DNA of 64,000 nucleotides from Pilaira anomala (taxonomy: Eukaryota; Mucoromycota; Mucoromycetes; Mucorales; Mucoraceae): the NCBI GenBank assembly GCA_025716855.1, contig JAIXMQ010000029.1, positions 1 through 64,000 of the forward strand. Reading direction: 5' to 3'. The translations under genes were made by a program, and so were the position numbers. Shown one piece after another: positions 30,189 to 60,835 of this stretch (position 1 is its first letter; every line of letters starts with the position of its first letter). The notes beneath the pieces were generated by a model. It was given only the letters and a program-made list of their open reading frames with translations. It was not told the DNA's origin and did no database searches.

Positions 30189-31735
30189 TTTATCACACAC
30201 ATTCTTTTTAAATAAATAGTAAAATAAAGTCTTGTATTTCAATAATTTACATAAAAAAGAACAAAAGAAAAAAATTATTCAATTAATGATTTATCTTTTT
30301 TTATTATTACATCGTTCATTCGCTTTTTATAGTATCATGAAATGCATATTAAGAAAATAGTAGCTTTTGATAACTAGTCAATAGCATAAGTCATATAGGA
30401 ATAGAATACGACGGTTGAGGTGTTTTTATACTGTCTAATAAGTTTATTTACGTTAAAAGAAGTAGTTAGGATGTATAGTAGTTATCGAATATAGAAATAA
30501 ATGAATGGGAGTTAGATGGTCTTGACATAGAAATTTGATAATGTGGTTTATAATTTTTCAATGCTTTCACCTTTTGCCAATTTAAGTTGATGTGTAGTTG
30601 GCATTTTCGTTCGCATCAAAGATTATTGAAAGCCAAAACAAAAATGTTAACGCAATCTTATGATTGTATAGCGCTTGTAATTTTAAAAAGCCCTTTTAAA
30701 ACTACCATTACATTACGCTTTCAAAAGCCCTACACTATGCTATCTATTTTACTGACATTAATTAGTCTTTTTGATAAAGAAAAACGAGGTATTATAGATA
30801 TGATGTTTTTGTTGTAGCGAAAAAAAAAAAATTGAGCCAGTTGTATGTTCAATATTTATAGGACACAAGATATTTATTTATTGCGATTATTAAAGAACAA
30901 GACGAAACAAGAAGTTTTATGGTCAAAAAATATGTCTACAAGGATGTAAATTTTTGCTTCAAAACAAATGATTCTTGTACTTGCTTAACCTCCTCAGGTA
31001 TTGTTATACAACTGCATATAACTTGTCATTGATAAATCTTGTCAGTAGTAACTCTTGAAATAAAATATATGTATGAGTATACCTTTGACTTCACATCGTT
31101 GACGCCTTGATTTACAACATCTTGATTTAAAACACCTTGTCTGACCACACAAGTTATCCTTAAAGGTACCGCCATTTCTTTTTTAAAGCCTGTTCATCAG
31201 AAAGAGCTCTTCTTATTCCTAATATAGAATTTCTTCCTACTGGTTATAAAATGATTAATTTAAAATATTACCAATGTATATTTGAAGTTTTTGGTTTTCT
31301 TCTTGAGTTTGATACTTGATAACCTTTTTTAGCCTTAAAGCTGACCACTACGCCAGAGCCACCAGATAAGTCATTCTAAAGTAAGTTAAAGATCCTCTTA
31401 AGCAGGAGCAGAAAGAACATAAGTTATCAAATGAGGGAGGACAAACTCACTTCAGATATCATTACAATTTGTGCCATGTGTAATACGATGGCCTTATCGT
31501 CCAGTGCATAGCCCAAAAGCATGTTTCCATATTGTTGCTTATACAATCTCAAAGGCTGATTTGAGTACACACGAGAACTCTTATTTGGTAATATTTTTAT
31601 TGTATAAAAAATTTAATCTTCCAAGGTAGCATTTCAAATTAAGATGACATATGTCAATAAAGAATAAAGACACCATAGTTTTCAAAAAGTTAGGAAAACA
31701 TGTTTATTAAATAAATATATAAAAAAAAACCGAAG
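30189..31735. other. Intergenic region, no gene recognised
   Basis: 3' region of the secreted-protein gene, then AT-rich sequence. The plus frame 30587-30817 has no domain. The right part borders the broken Tc1/mariner transposase; no clear terminal inverted repeat of that element was found here. Confidence 0.45.
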
Positions 31736-32791
31736 TTAGAAGCGCGTTGGCACCCCTTTGGCTTTAATTACAGCCTCGCATCTTTCCTTCATCCCCTTTA
31801 CCAACGTACCAGCATACTCTACACTAAGTTTTCCCCATTCCTCCTTCAATTTTTCCATACTTTTTACCTCGGACCTTCTCTTACCAATCCTATTTTTAAA
31901 AAGTCCCGAAACGTTCTCGATGGGGTTCAGATCCGGACTTTGAGCTGGCCAGTACTCAAAGCCCTTAATATCCCAACGCTTTTTCCACCATCTTGCATAC
32001 GTTGAAGTATGACAGCTGGCACCATCTTCTTGGAATATAAACTCCCTCTGCTCTTCCTCTGAAAGTCTAGTTACCCAAGAGATGTAGTTATTTGACAAGC
32101 AGTTGATATAAGCTTCTTGATCCACTGTACTGTCAAAAAACACCAAAGGACCAAATCCACCACCCCAGAAGCATCCCCAGACCATTACGCTACCAATTCC
32201 CCACTTGGTCGTCTGTACAATATTAGCAGCGTCATATCTGTGGCATTTTTGTCGAATACCTCTTGGAGCTTCAACATGACCTCCTGCAGTGAATTTCGAC
32301 TCATTCGACCAAATTACACTCATCCATTGGTCTTCATCCCAATTAACATGCTGTCTTGCCCATTCCAGTCTTTTTTTCTTGTGTTCTTCTGTCAAACGTG
32401 GTTTATGGGCTGCAATGTATGAAGAGTATCCCTCCCTTTTTAAACTCTTGATGACTGTTGCTCTACAGACATCGATGTCCATCTTTTTTAATTCGACTTT
32501 TAAGTCATTATAGCAGCATAATGGGTCCTTATGCAAAATCTGCTTGAGGTGTCACATTGCTCTTTCGTCAAGTTTACGCTTAATATCAGGCCTCTTGCTT
32601 CTTTCTGTTGTCTTTCTCTTTTCGTATCTCTCGAGAAAATTACTGACGGTAGAGTAAGGAATGCCCATGTGTCTTGAAATCTCGGCTTTCGAAATTCCGA
32701 ACTTACTCAAGTGATAAATACCACCTAAATCAAATTCAGAATATTTATTATGGGTGTTATTTGAATCTGTTTCAGTATTTGAAGTTGACAT
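31736..32791 (-). pseudogene. Tc1/mariner transposase, inactivated
   Basis: Tc1-family transposase of about 352 codons, broken by a TGA at 32552-32554 in an otherwise continuous frame. The N-terminal part has a helix-turn-helix (ISRHMGIPYSTVSNFLERYE). The nuclease part shows VIWSNESKF, where the family has an Asp in place of this Asn, then FQEDGASCHTS and SPDLNPIENVSGLFKNR. So besides the stop, the first catalytic carboxylate appears lost. Both changes fit single transitions. Clean terminal inverted repeats were not found. A dead copy. Confidence 0.9.
32552..32554 (-). other. Premature TGA in the Tc1 transposase
   Basis: In-frame TGA between the DNA-binding and nuclease parts, following ...DERAM and preceding HLKQILHKD. 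A CGA to TGA change would explain it. Confidence 0.85.
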
Positions 32792-32980
32792 TGCTGTTTA
32801 GATTAGTAGATAGTGGAGTAAGAGTCGTTTTATTGTTTAAAAAAAAAGGTAGTTTTTGAAAAAATAAATATCACCAAATAAGGGTTCTCGTGACTGTAAG
32901 TACTATACATGTTAATGTAATATTTGCTTAAATTAATTTTTTTTTATGTAGCCCCACTCGCTCCACTCTTCCAAGAGTAT

Positions 32981-33512
32981 AAGGACACTTATTGTGTTCC
33001 TTTGATCTCGTCTGTTCCTGCCTGGAACGCAAAAAAAGCTTCTCCTCCTGCCGAAGTTTGTAAATCTGCCACAATCATGGCAGATTTGTTCCAAAAAGCA
33101 TCCCCCGTGGATGTTTGTTATCCTGTCACGGAAAAAGGTCTCGTTGTTGTCTCTCCTCTTGCTCTACCTGTGTGTTCTGCTGTGGTTAGCGGTTGTAAAC
33201 CCGATTTTACATCGGGTTTGTTTGAATTACAAGTCTCTCCCCCTCTTCCCTTTCCTTCTTGTCCGGTCCCATCTCCTTCTGATACCCTTTCTTCTCTTTT
33301 TTCGCCTGTTGGGTACTATCCATTACAACCCTTTCTCTCTCTGGACCGGATCTAAATCTTTTACTTCAACAGTAAAAGATTTGTTTCAAGAAATGATTGT
33401 CGTGTTAAGAAGCAACCCTTTCACGACAATCATTGTAACAATTGAGGTCATTTACCTCCTCCGAAGGAGTAAACAAGGATGGCAAAGAAAAGACCGTCCT
33501 TGTTCTCTTTGC
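32981..33512. repeat. Tandem hairpin array
   Basis: About a dozen inverted repeats lie almost end to end in 530 bp. Perfect stems: 10 bp (33062-33071 with 33078-33087, loop CAATCA); 9 bp (33197-33205 with 33211-33219); 12 bp (33354-33365 with 33371-33382, loop TCAAC); 13 bp (33392-33404 with 33422-33434); 8 bp (33472-33479 with 33497-33504). A distant pair TCCGGTCC (33262) and GGACCGGA (33343) encloses another. Smaller or bulged hairpins sit at 32981-33002, 33014-33028, 33036-33058, 33099-33113 and 33451-33473. GCAAAGA (33482) with TCTTTGC (33506) interlocks with the last stem like a pseudoknot. A plus frame (32924-33355) reads through it without a known domain. Nature unknown. Confidence 0.7.
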
Positions 33513-33593
33513 TCTAAATAAACTATCTTTTTCATAAAATATTGTTTTCCCATTTGTGCATAACTCTTTCTAATTTTTTAATGCTTTGAAATA

Positions 33594-33722
33594 GATCTGA
33601 AGGAGAAGTTAAAAGAAGCTTGGTCAGAAATGACGGTCGAGTATATCGAGAGTCTTTACGAAAGTATGCCCAGAAGATGTAGGGCAGTTATAACTGCTAA
33701 AGGCGATGTTACTAAATATTAA
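33594..33722 (+). pseudogene. Orphan C-terminus of a Tc1/mariner transposase
   Basis: About 42 codons ending in a stop read LKEKLKEAWSEMTVEYIESL and then MPRRCRAVITAKG, the typical last helix and tail of a Tc1-type transposase. It resembles the end of the pseudogene at 31.7 kb but is on the other strand. Everything upstream that should encode the rest is replaced by the hairpin array. Confidence 0.8.
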
Positions 33723-34006
33723 TTTTTCTAATTTTTTTTTGTTAAACAACCTCATCTTTGTTCTTTCAAGTTTTGAAGGCATCTTGTCTGATTTATGATT
33801 TTTTATTGAGAAACGATACCAAAATGACTCCAGAGGTGAATCATTATAAATTACATAGTTATGTTTATTTTAAGAAAAAGCACACTCATTCTTCTACCTA
33901 GGTATGTTATTTCTTGTCTGTATCATCTTAACATAACGCACACAAAAAAAGCTGCTAAGTAGGTCAAATACAATGAATTATTATAGCTTTATTTTATAAA
34001 TCCTTA
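33723..34006. other. Spacer, nothing recognised
   Basis: AT-rich sequence between the Tc1 remnant and a MITE. Confidence 0.4.
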
Positions 34007-34585: not shown

Positions 34586-36316
34586 TTATGATTTAATACA
34601 ACTTCCAGGAATAGGGCCTTCTTTTTCAACTGGAGTGGCGGGAGGGGTGGAAGCTTGAATAACAGTGGGAGCAGCGACAGCAGCACCGTTACGGTTGTGA
34701 GCCATATGAGCTTTAACCAAGTGACCAGCAGCCAAGGCAGCACAAAGAGAGAGCTCACCAGCCATAACGGAAGCACAAATGACGCGAGCAAGGCGACGGG
34801 CATTAGCCCCGGGTTCAGTGGGATGAGGGCCACGAACACCAATGAAATCAAGCATAGCTTGTTGAGGAGGTAAGATTGTACCACCACCAATAGTTCCAAC
34901 TTCAATACAAGGCATAGTACAGGATATATGGAGATCTTTGCCTCCGTTGACAGCCTTCATTAAAGTGATACAGTTAGAACTCTCAACGTTTTGAGCAGGA
35001 TCTTGACCAGTAGCCAAGTAAACAGCAGTCAAAATATTAGCAGCGTGAGCATTGAAACCACCAACGGAACCAGCCATAGCAGAACCGATTAAGTTTTTAG
35101 AAATATTCAATTCAACAAGAGCTTCAACGGTGGTCTTTAAGACTTTTTGGACGACAGAACCTGGAATAACAGCTTCAGAAACACAAGATTTACCACGACC
35201 TTCAATCCAATTGATAGCAGCAGGCTTTTTATCAGTACAATAATTACCCGAAAGAGAAATAATTTGCATATCGGGATAACGCTCAGAAATTTTACTTAAA
35301 GCTTTTTCACAACCCTTTGAAATCATGTTCATACCCATAGCATCTCCTGTAGTTGTGGAGAAACGAATATATACAAGTCTACCAGCAAGTGCTACCTTTA
35401 ATTTACGTACACGGGCAAAACGAGACGTAGAGTTAAAAGCCTCAGTCACAATATCTTCTCCTTCTTGTTCGATCCAACGCTTACAATCAGCTGCACGAGT
35501 AATATTAGGAAATTCCACACAGGGTCCACGGGTCATACCGTCAGCAGTAACAATAGTAGTTGCTCCTCCTCCAGCATTAATAGCTTTACATCCTCTTGCT
35601 GTAGAAGCAACCAAACAGCCTTCTGTAGTAGCCATAGGAATATGAATGAGATCGCCATCAATGTTCATGGGACCTATTTTTTTTTTGTTTGTTTGTTAAA
35701 CCACTGAAAAAAATAAAAAAGTTCTACCTTATTCTTCGTAACACTTACCAGCAACACCAACAGGAATGGGCATATAGCCAATCACGTTTTCACAACAAGC
35801 ACCCATGACTTTGTCATAATGATAATTTTTAACGGGAAGCAAACTTCCTTCGAGAGAATGAGTAATAGAATCACGAGAGATCAAAGCTCTACGAATATGA
35901 ACAGCCCGTTCGAAATCACCAAGTACCTTTTCAAGAGCATAAGGTGCCATCTTGCCATTTTGAACAATGGAAATGATTTCTTCATCGGATAAAACTTCTG
36001 GAGTACTAATTAAACTAAATGCTTCATCCAAAGTACGAATGAGACCTGTAGGTGGATGAGCATGCTTTCTCGAGGGCTTTGGCCCAGATGACTTCGTAAT
36101 AGAGCGTTCTTGTTTTTTAGTGGCGGGAGCAGAGACAGGTACTTCAACTCGTTCAATCACTTTTTGAATAATGACCTTGGGTTGTTGTTTTGAAACGTTG
36201 AAGAGATAAGTATTGAGAAATAAGGACGCACAGAGACCAATAGCTAACCACTTGAAGATGACAGGATATTGAATATACACAGCATAAACGTCAGAAATAT
36301 TTTCGAAAGGTGACAT
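34586..36316 (-). CDS. hmgR: HMG-CoA reductase with short single-span N-terminus
   Basis: Reduces HMG-CoA to mevalonate with two NADPH, the committed step to sterols and, in these fungi, carotenoids. Two exons (35749-36316, 34586-35673) give 551 residues from the ATG at 36316 ([11 protein letters not shown]). Only one membrane segment is seen, about residues 18-42 ([20 protein letters not shown]), then a Lys/Pro linker; there is no sterol-sensing domain. The catalytic domain is complete: [11 protein letters not shown] with the Glu, DKKPAAINW with the Lys, [13 protein letters not shown] with the Asp and [11 protein letters not shown] with the His, plus [14 protein letters not shown]. Class I reductases usually carry seven or eight membrane spans. 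Mucoralean fungi have several reductase genes; this could be a short paralogue. Confidence 0.95.
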
Positions 36317-58502: not shown

Positions 58503-60835
58503 AAGTTTTATTATTTTGATCAAATTTTCTCATTTTCATTGCAAATTTAGGTGGTAACTTAATTTGAGTTGAAGTATAACCTATATCCAAGGTAATTGTA
58601 ATTAAACTTTCGCTTAAATGACTATAATCGTCTTTTATGATTGAAACGATTTGATCAAGACGTACAAAATAGATGTCAGTATCAAGAAATTTTTGCTTTT
58701 CAGCCTCTTTAAGTTTGTTGTTTTGAGTTATCATAGTAGATAATGGTGACCAAAGTCTTTCCTTTTCCTTTGATTGAATTTGACGTCGATCAAGATTTGG
58801 ATAGAGTTTCGAGAGTTGATTTGTAGTAATACCTAATAAGAGACTTACTTGAAGATCAACAACAAAAAAGTGTTCAGATATTTGAATCGTATAAAGGGGA
58901 AGATAGCGAGATGCACAATGAATGGAAGGGTATAATAGGTCTTCTTCTTTTTTAACTACTTTTTGCTGCCATCGCTCTGGTGGTGGTGTAGGTATAGGTG
59001 TATGAGGTCCATCAGGTGGTACTTCAGTTTTCACTAAATGAGGTTTTAAACTCTTTTTAGGTAAATGTTGACCTGATAATTGTCTTGCATGTGCTTTAGC
59101 TGTAGTCATATCAAATCCTCCAATAGGTGATGTAGGTGATTCAGGTTGTTTACAAGATTGTAAATCAGCTGCTAAAACTAATTTTCGTTTCTTTGGCTTT
59201 ACATCTAATATTTATTTATTTATTATTATGGTTTATAATATAATGCTTGCTTGCTTGCTTACCTTTATGTTTCTTTAATAATGTTTCAATCTCTTTATTA
59301 TCTTCTTCAATCGCTATTTGAAGTGGTGTTAAACCTTTAGAGTTTTTAGCAGTAACATCTGCACCATATTCCAACAAAAGTTGAACTACATCAGGGTAAC
59401 CATTTTCAGTTGCATCATGAAGTGGAGTATCTAAATCAGCACCTTTACAATTGACATCAGCATTATTTTCTAATAACAATTGAACTACTTGAGTTTTTCC
59501 ACGAAGAGAAGCTTCGTGTAATGGAGTATAACCAGCATTATCTCTTTCACATGGATTTGCACCCGACTTTAATAAAGTTTCAACGACCTGTACATTACCA
59601 CGAATAGCCCATTTATGAAGATGAGTGCGTCCACTTGTATCCTTTTTAAAAGGATCAAATTTAGTTGTATCTACAATTGTATTATTATTATTATTATTAT
59701 TATTATTCTTCTTTGTTGTATTATCAATAGAGCATTCTCTTTGTTGTCTTATAGAAGAAGAAGGTGATTTTCGTTTTTTAGGATTATTTACATTAGATTC
59801 ATCATCATCTTTTTTTTCTTTCTTTTGTTGTTGTTTCTTTTCAGCTTTTTCAAATGCTTTCATAATTGCTTGAATCTTCTTTTCTTCACGAGAAAGTAAA
59901 ACACCTTCTTCAATTTGTTTTACATTTTTACGTTTTTGCTTTGTATTTGAAACAAAAGTAATTTCATCAATAGCTTCAGTTGTTGCTCTTAATCTACGTT
60001 CTTCATCAATATGAGCAGTTATAATTTGTCTTACAGAAATAGAATCAGATACTTGATATGGACTTTGTCCTAATTGATTTACAATATGTACATTTGCACC
60101 ATGAGTAACTAAATAGTTTACGATATTTTCATTTCCAAATTGACAAGCAATATGAAGTACAGAAGAACCTTGTTTATCTAAACTATTGATATCAGCACCA
60201 TGATCAATTAATAATTTTGTTATTTCTAATTGATCATATTTAGCAGCACAGTGTAATGGAGTCCAACCAGATAAATCAGTTGCATTTGTGTTGGCACCAG
60301 CAATTAATAATTGTTTTACAATATCAATTGAACCATCAATACAAGCACGATGTAATGAAGTTTTACCTTCATTATCTCTTGCAGCTAATTTGTCCAATTC
60401 CTTCATTTTAGCTTTTAAAATTTTAATACAAGCTTTATCTTCACATAAATCGATAGGTCTCTTTTTATCTGTATTTAAAGCATAAACATCTGCACCTGAA
60501 TCAACTAATAACTTGACACAATCAGCGTAACCAAATGAACATGCATCATGTAATGGTGTATCATCTTCAAATCCACGTACATTTACAATCGCACCTGATT
60601 CAATTAAATATTTTGCAATTTCGTATTGTCCTTTTAATGCTGCTTCATGAAGTGGAGCCCAGCCTGCGTTATCTCTATGATTCACATCTGCACCACGTTC
60701 AATCAATTCTTTCACTTTTTGTAGACTTCCTGAACTGGTTGATGAAAATATCTTTGTTCGACCTGCTTTATCGGTTTTATTCGGATCTTGACATGATGTT
60801 CTTCCTCGAGGTTTATTTACTTTATCATCTGTCAT
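58501..60835 (-). CDS. Ankyrin-repeat protein, Hos4/Set3-complex-like
   Basis: Two exons (59263-60835, 58501-59204) give 758 residues. The N-terminal half has ankyrin repeats (DNAGWAPLHEAALKGQYEIA, DDTPLHDACSFGYADCVKLL, LSGWTPLHCAAKYDQLEITK and more, to about residue 285). A charged linker with poly-Asn follows, then a second block of three repeats at about 400-510 (DTSGRTHLHKWAIRGN, DNAGYTPLHEASLRGKTQVV, DTPLHDATENGYPDVV). The C-terminal 230 residues are basic, then a globular-looking part (IQISEHFFVVDLQVSLLLGI). The repeat wording and the long basic linker recall yeast Hos4, the ankyrin subunit of the Set3 deacetylase complex; this is inference. The complex partners are not in the window. 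Confidence 0.75.
59681..59710 (-). repeat. AAT/AAC repeat coding poly-Asn
   Basis: Run of Asn codons in the linker between the two ankyrin blocks of the Hos4-like protein. Confidence 0.75.

Follow-up and report, generated by a model that had tools for sequence, protein, structure and literature searches.

Predicted mRNA hairpins beyond coding need in the main exon of a Pilaira anomala gene family

INTRODUCTION

Stable hairpins seldom overlap coding sequence, and few examples have been reported, according to the relevant passages of PMC6649704. A dense series of hairpins at 32981–33512 of a genomic contig of Pilaira anomala raises the question of what such a stretch encodes and what keeps its stems. 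The DNA analysed here, called the window, comprises 64,000 nucleotides (contig JAIXMQ010000029.1 of assembly GCA_025716855.1, positions 1 to 64,000, forward strand), and all positions refer to it unless another copy is named; the stretch at 32981–33512 is called the island.

RESULTS

Hairpins and predicted fold of the island

Perfect inverted repeats of 13, 12, 10 and 9 bp were located at 33392–33404/33422–33434, 33354–33365/33371–33382, 33062–33071/33078–33087 and 33197–33205/33211–33219, respectively. The repeat at 33472–33482/33494–33504 matched over 91% of its 11 bp, and an 8-bp long-range pair joined 33262–33269 and 33343–33350. The last two stems of the island, 33472–33482/33494–33504 and 33482–33491/33503–33512, interlock. 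The stems, the long-range pair and the interlock were thus found where a preliminary description of this DNA had placed them.

The minimum free energy of 32981–33512 was −150.9 kcal/mol on the plus strand, compared with a mean of −111.28 kcal/mol for dinucleotide-shuffled sequences (z −6.93), and −163.4 kcal/mol on the minus strand, compared with −125.36 kcal/mol (z −6.85). None of 100 dinucleotide shuffles folded as low on either strand, confirming that the hairpins are beyond chance, as had been proposed. When perfect hairpins were sought across the entire window, the island held the top three scores of 276 matches, and its fourth hairpin (33197, score 18.3) ranked below a poly-T stem, another stem located at 60200 and a TA repeat. 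The GC content was 0.434 in the island and 0.324 in the window, where 2.2% of 635 segments of equal size were as GC-rich as the island, in agreement with the description of the island as GC-richer than its surroundings. Rfam gave no match at gathering score anywhere in the window.

Identity of the island

When the genome of P. anomala itself (34,252,262 bases in 225 contigs) was searched with 32900–33600, 15 matches were obtained, and the closest copies were C15 (96% identical) and C144 (90%). The alignment of these two copies gave a gene layout with a short exon 1 carrying the ATG and a hydrophobic stretch, an intron, and an exon 2 of 576 bases including the stop codon. The hydrophobic stretch encoded by exon 1 of C15 is MVILPIICYLITAVTFMF. 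Judged by this alignment, the island represents the second exon of a gene from a P. anomala multigene family, in a decayed copy that is interrupted by Tc1 and frameshifted. Exon 2 of this pseudogene copy extends over 32952–33521 on the plus strand and ends in TAA; it runs through two frames, which change near 33313–33343. Its open reading frames lie at 32921–33355 and 33006–33521, and the C15 protein matched the window by tblastn in two pieces and two frames. The family intron (GTAAGT...TAG) was placed at 32896–32951 on the plus strand by aligning the window with C15 and C144, and annotated P. anomala proteins show the same splice junction (..FPP..).

The 5′ splice site of this intron abuts the end of a Tc1-type element at 31570–32896 on the minus strand, which has terminal inverted repeats at 31570–31611/32853–32892 and a transposase in two pieces (31736–32551 and 32552–32797, minus strand). 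The right end of the element reads ...GTGACTG followed by TA and stops at 32896, at the splice site of the family gene. Exon 1 is absent from the window copy, and the sequence to the left of the element aligns to the C15 locus approximately 1.5 kb further upstream. A second Tc1 remnant occupies 33593–34004 on the plus strand. Its sequence matches the 3′ portion of a Tc1 element that follows the C15 gene, and the junction in the window falls at 33593; in C15 this 3′ portion is situated approximately 1 kb further on. We infer that the window copy has suffered deletions, including the approximately 1 kb that is present at C15 beside the second Tc1. Tc1 pieces were thus found on either side of the island, as first described. 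A coding exon of HMG-CoA reductase (34586–35695, minus strand; PF00368, E 5.5e-130) adjoins the island.

The island had been described as belonging to an unknown class. This stands insofar as no Rfam match and no described class were found, but the description missed that the island is an exon.

The gene family in P. anomala

The family occupies 28 distinct places in its own genome, and exon 2 is open in 17 of these, a number that makes selection on RNA and template switching in DNA testable against each other. The remaining 10 places, including the window copy, are cut short or broken. The weakest place, C159, was counted among the 28 (E 1.7e-5 in one search and 0.066 in another), and a match at C176 with an E of 2 was excluded. 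C2_560 is among the 17 although it is without the C-terminal part of the family, and its near-identical twin C2:558k (inverted duplication, 99.5%) was omitted from them. All 17 exons are related to one another, some of them almost identical.

Homology among the copies spans exon 1, the intron, exon 2 with its stop codon and the flanks, in the form of duplicated segments. In these alignments the copies show neither borders of their own nor a self-encoded enzyme, the enzymes identified nearby being Tc1 transposases, and Tc1 merely interrupts the window copy. The suggestion that the island is a hairpin-bearing mobile element was therefore left without support. Double-hairpin elements of fungal mitogenomes are likewise tandem hairpins, and they are mitochondrial, whereas the Pilaira case is one exon of an intron-containing gene. 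Intron-bearing copies lie on contigs of up to 813 kb, with ordinary genes where these were read, and do not support a mitochondrial insertion, which had been the second suggestion.

Over exon 2, dN/dS was 0.12–0.62 in every listed pair (dS < 1.2 and > 8 differences), and exon 2 of C15 and of C144 differ by two indels of three bases each. By these measures, exon 2 of the 17 open copies is shown to encode a protein under purifying selection. A noncoding RNA with chance open frames was rejected because dN/dS is below 1 and the indels between C15 and C144 are of three bases; the structured noncoding RNA suggested earlier is not supported, given the open frames and the same dN/dS values.

The six proteins inspected have 193–224 residues, 9–12% proline and 8–12 cysteines. 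Each has a hydrophobic N-terminus and a second hydrophobic segment near the C-terminus, followed by a basic tail, and the family proteins are probably secreted or membrane-bound. Neither Pfam nor PDB gave a match for family proteins, and the single NCBIfam match was weak, far under the cut-off, and lay in the unrelated end of the annotated protein P0001 (C2:557–561 kb), which fuses the start of the family to that end. No relatives outside P. anomala were found among 5.8 billion proteins with E up to 10 (up to 1 in one of the searches); the method needs shared 5-residue words, so the absence of the family elsewhere cannot be concluded. The literature on P. anomala, at the level of titles and abstract openings, did not report the hairpin family, and the open-licence literature searched yielded no description of a comparable nuclear family.

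Several loci carry further duplications. A 1.9-kb inverted duplication, 99.5% identical, at L011 1806–3737/3957–5889 (C2:557–561 kb) comprises two copies of the family gene flanking a short tandem repeat. Upstream of the C15, C144 and C217 copies, a segment of approximately 120–165 bases is duplicated in tandem with 76–81% identity (L009 3098–3373, L010 3629–3926 and L012 3482–3805). The C182, C199, C2_729 and C2_419 copies are surrounded by blocks of 1–5 kb with 93–96% identity (L013–L016), which, by their alignment, are recent segmental duplications; a second open frame (MAIRHDNY/MAIHHDNY...) is present at three of these four loci.

Fold excess beyond what coding requires

Synonymous codons were permuted within each exon while the protein and the codon counts were kept fixed, with 100 shuffles per exon; for C2_560, the first 160 codons were used. 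All 17 open exons folded better than the mean of their codon shuffles, with sense-strand z values of −2.37 to −9.18. Shuffles as low as the real exon were found in 0 of 100 cases for 16 exons and in 1 of 100 for C207_54. The excess on the sense strand was greater than that on the antisense strand in 17 of 17 exons.

Control ORFs, which are open frames and not all proven genes, were folded over their first 600 bases with 40 shuffles. The 44 controls gave codon-shuffle z values of −3.03 to +2.07 overall. The 27 other ORFs of the window ranged from −3.03 to +1.87 (28 of its 32 non-overlapping ORFs were run, one being the island itself), and the 17 ORFs beside paralogs, two of which are copies of one gene, had a mean of 0.18 and a standard deviation of 0.96 (range −2.32 to +2.07). 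A general tendency of this genome towards structured coding sequence was rejected, as the 44 control ORFs show no such excess. The Tc1 transposase ORF at 31739–32551 (minus strand), with a z of −3.03, was the sole window control (1 of 27) below −2.

Windowed folding was carried out along four genes, C15, C150, C2_419 and C57. Inside exon 2, the lowest z values were −6.6, −6.0, −8.0 and −7.2, respectively, with stretches near 0 between the minima. Upstream of exon 2, z ranged from +1.3 to −2.9. Beyond the stop codon, z was back at approximately 0 at once in three of the four genes, and C2_419 kept windows at −2.4 and −3.1.

These folding predictions show that the hairpins are not accounted for by coding, as the predicted fold of exon 2 exceeds the need of protein and codon usage. 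The preliminary description had named a coding family that explains the palindromes as one finding that would overturn it. The coding family exists; the codon-preserving shuffles indicate that coding is insufficient for the palindromes.

Local folds contained 6–11 local hairpins of at least 7 bp in each of 11 exons, which were chosen from the 17 to drop close copies, and across these 11 exons the hairpins often stand at corresponding sites with different letters. In C2_419 (L029, nt 378–428 of exon 2), an in-frame stem of 22 pairs, including a single G-U, is followed by an imperfect 21-pair stem.

Conservation and covariation of the stems

The stems of the window copy, all on the plus strand, were compared with those of its paralogs. 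H1 (YKDTYC, 32981–33002) has 8 bp with one bulge, H2 (SVPAWN, 33013–33029) 6 bp, H4 (CKSATIMADL, 33061–33088) 11 bp, H5 (KASPVDVC, 33096–33116) 8 bp, H7 (CKPDFTSGL, 33196–33220) 10 bp and H8 (SKSFTSTVKDL, 33353–33383) 13 bp. H9 (33392–33434) has a 13-bp perfect stem, or 16 pairs including an inner stem, and covers part of the C-terminal hydrophobic segment. The last two stems (33472–33512), whose interlock is known from the window copy, encode the basic C-terminal tail. A local fold with at least 6 pairs was found for H8 in 17 of 17 exons, for H1 in 14, for H5 and H10 in 11 each, for H7 in 9 and for H4 in 5; the H7 segment is absent from 4 of the 17 exons, within larger gaps. In C15 and C144, H1 exists with a shifted arm. 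The H1 arms differ among other copies, being GGTTGC/GCAACC in C170_178, AGTTAC/GTAACT in C211, AGTGC/GCACT in C2_560 and GAGTAC/GTACTC in C150.

H1, H7 and H8 were selected for a covariation test as hairpins that align without gaps; the test is a counting test and not phylogeny-aware. For H1 (11 distinct sequences), 98.0% of cells were paired compared with 86.6% in shuffles, and the covariation score was 0.501 compared with 0.265. For H7 (8 sequences), the paired cells were 100% compared with 87.5%, and the score was 0.539 compared with 0.277. For H8 (9 sequences), they were 93.5% compared with 87.9%, and the score was 0.310 compared with 0.200. In all three, 0 of 500 shuffles scored as high. 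When the partners were slid by 1–3 columns, 25–56% of cells paired. Pairs changed on both sides showed a partial excess, with 11, 38 and 1 of 500 shuffles as high for H1, H8 and H7, respectively. The count of further pair types was not above shuffles in H1, H8 and H7 (484, 499 and 452 of 500 as high).

In 90 ordered comparisons among 10 exons, changes within the stems were counted as well. Where both partners had changed (two-sided changes), 798 of 1166 cells were still paired, compared with 30–43% when the partners were slid by 1–9 columns. Where one partner had changed, 611 of 1911 were (32%), near the bottom of the range obtained with slid partners (31–49%). The pairs in these counts, as in the swap and G-U/A-C counts below, derive from energy folds of the same sequences, and kinship among the exons inflates the two-sided, G-U and related counts. 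Some changes are visible in the protein. Stems that open with AAA TCN close with GAT TTG (K-S..D-L), and those that open with AAA CCN close with GGT TTG (K-P..G-L); a third swap, AAA/AAG GCT with GCT TTG (K-A..A-L), forms only approximately six pairs, outside the local fold. On these alignments, stem changes on both sides at H1, H7 and H8, some of them altering the protein, are shown to keep the pairing.

Selection on the mRNA compared with template switching

Pairing stems could also be kept by mutation. In template switching during DNA replication, one arm is copied onto the other, so that palindromes would be kept by mutation and the protein dragged along. Such switching has been inferred for 39 yeast coding genes, with homogenisation of the arms (PMC8604942, in the available text), and inferred on trees to create and maintain rRNA hairpins (PMC8794818, likewise). 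It has also been suggested for the coding palindromes of nematomorph mitochondria, in the pertinent part of PMC6649704.

The perfection of the best stems in the window fits with this explanation, and so does the persistence of stems in broken copies. Stem decay in six broken copies showed no visible worsening, and between the window copy and C15 none of 83 stem pairs differed though the exons are 3.3% apart (approximately 19 differences; rough binomial p 0.002). Synonymous divergence in stems gave no consistent reduction, as two sets of disjoint pairs disagreed. In the first set, it was not lower in stems than outside (52/310 compared with 84/485); in the second, it was lower (51/238 compared with 108/344, p 0.008). 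Fourfold sites alone gave 28/141 in stems compared with 52/287 outside in the first set and 26/110 compared with 69/202 (p 0.055) in the second.

However, template switching should hit any gene, and a mutational process would be expected in the control ORFs and upstream flanks too. The 44 control ORFs were without such an excess and the upstream flanks showed little, which speaks for selection, as does the larger excess on the sense strand in 17 of 17 exons. Across 14 exons, 46 pairs alternate between A-U and G-C; at these, G-U occupied 51 cells and A-C 26, the bias that a need for pairing in the sense RNA would produce, although related sequences inflate the count; the G-U cells were spread over 18 of these pairs and the A-C cells over 10. 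A strand-symmetric stem finder gave a weak difference in the same comparison of mismatches, with 19 G-T and 11 A-C in the 11 dereplicated exons and 29 and 15 in all 17. In 9 exons, H10 retained its internal loop while the flanking pairs changed, which also counts against switching. No loop was the inverse of another among 10 loop classes, a result that counts against switching, although such inversions are rare in rRNA too, according to the part of PMC8794818 that treats them.

Points that weigh against selection are the windows still low beyond the stop codon of C2_419, the patchy occurrence of H4, H5, H7 and H10, and the counts of one-sided changes and of further pair types. Taken together, selection is modestly favoured over mutation. 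We lean slightly towards the reading that the fold of the sense mRNA itself, as modelled here, is selected, and regard template switching as a serious but rather unlikely source of the stems.

DISCUSSION

A single DNA stretch seems to be held to two jobs, one in the protein and one in predicted RNA hairpins. If the fold of the mRNA is selected, recognition would depend on the RNA being double-stranded or stable and not on its sequence, because the letters of the stems vary while their pairing stays. The hairpins would most likely act in cis on the mRNA during translation or decay, since the excess starts with exon 2 and for the most part does not extend past the stop codon. The loops showed no sequence shared by all hairpins. 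The hairpins are local, are spread over the exon and mostly end with the translated region, a layout that suggests a double-strand reader or a mechanical effect on the ribosome; a binding site recognised by sequence, a guide RNA and a start-codon switch are less favoured by it.

Two options, which we consider equally possible, follow from this model. The hairpins could slow ribosomes during synthesis of a membrane or secreted protein, or they could protect a multi-copy message against decay that is single-strand-specific or guided by small RNAs. The genome has one place with a Piwi domain, three with RdRP and several RNase III domains (two places paired), so that a shield against RNA-guided or single-strand decay is possible. 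RNase R3B2 of Mucor, also in the Mucorales, binds single- and double-stranded RNA and cuts single strands only, as stated in the available text of PMC11943222. R3B2 was considered as the activity against which the hairpins guard, but nothing ties it to the hairpin family. We tentatively propose a nuclear eukaryotic family whose main coding exon is held by selection as a series of independent mRNA hairpins, read by shape, not sequence, and dictating paired amino-acid changes, which may serve as a double-strand shield or as a ribosome-pacing track. If this is true, amino-acid covariation can arise from RNA pairing rather than from protein contacts. Given sequences from further strains, the broken copies in the P. 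anomala genome could act as controls.

The same RNase III, Piwi and RdRP domains would also suit hairpins that are substrates, with Dicer or another RNase III cutting the message into small RNAs that silence the family or other genes, and the stem of 22 pairs in C2_419 would fit with this too. Most of the listed stems, however, are below 18 bp and short for Dicer, and the stem sequences diverge between paralogs, contrary to a conserved guide. We consider this use of the hairpins improbable.

RNA structure within a coding region is known from the yeast ASH1 zipcodes. Structures of this type, with the lentiviral RRE, usually consist of one element with a known binding partner. The selected mRNA fold proposed here would resemble them in that protein and RNA structure share the same letters, and the family shows both an excess over codon shuffles (17 of 17 exons below the mean in energy) and covariation at homologous pairs. 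It differs in having a series of hairpins along the exon in place of one element with a known partner. The RRE is described as a conserved RNA structure in a coding region within PMC6649704, in the section available.

The nearest published case that we found is that of the coding palindromes of nematomorph mitochondria, for which the following rests on the pertinent parts of PMC6649704. In both systems, the arms of the inverted repeats encode protein, and the protein is under selection; in Pilaira, both arms lie inside the open frame in the 17 open exon 2 sequences, and dN/dS is 0.12–0.62. The nematomorph palindromes are mitochondrial and are frequently gained and lost; their arms reach 142 bp, the long ones being almost always perfect. 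The Pilaira family, in contrast, is a multigene family with intron-bearing genes, found in one species so far, and its arms are not long, perfect or mitochondrial; they are approximately 6–22 bp, with G-U pairs, mismatches and bulges, and some sites are kept with compensatory and G-U changes, unlike those of the nematomorph type. The nematomorph authors named no function for the hairpins and considered parasitic, mutation-driven upkeep (PMC6649704). Template-switched rRNA hairpins share with the family compensatory change at hairpins; in the rRNA study, as far as its available text goes, mutations were placed on tree branches (PMC8794818), whereas the Pilaira case concerns a protein-coding exon, with no loop inversion among the 10 loop classes.

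Rickettsia palindromic elements, like the Pilaira stems, are hairpin-forming stretches inside coding genes, and the passages of PMC6649704 that mention them describe them as transposable. By analogy, the Pilaira hairpins could be in-frame insertions of a palindromic mobile element spreading inside the gene. H4, H7 and H8 have common edges (AAA...TTTG) and a K..LF peptide, like related repeats, and the absence of the H7 segment from 4 of 17 exons, inside larger gaps, would fit. Yet genome patterns for H8 and H4 with at most 3 mismatches matched family places only, save three H8 hits with 3 mismatches, which are weak and at about chance level (1 in a reversed-pattern control), and H8 is present in 17 of 17 exons, covarying in place. 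Such insertions are thus a very improbable origin of the stems, and the common edges of H4, H7 and H8 may instead reflect an old internal duplication.
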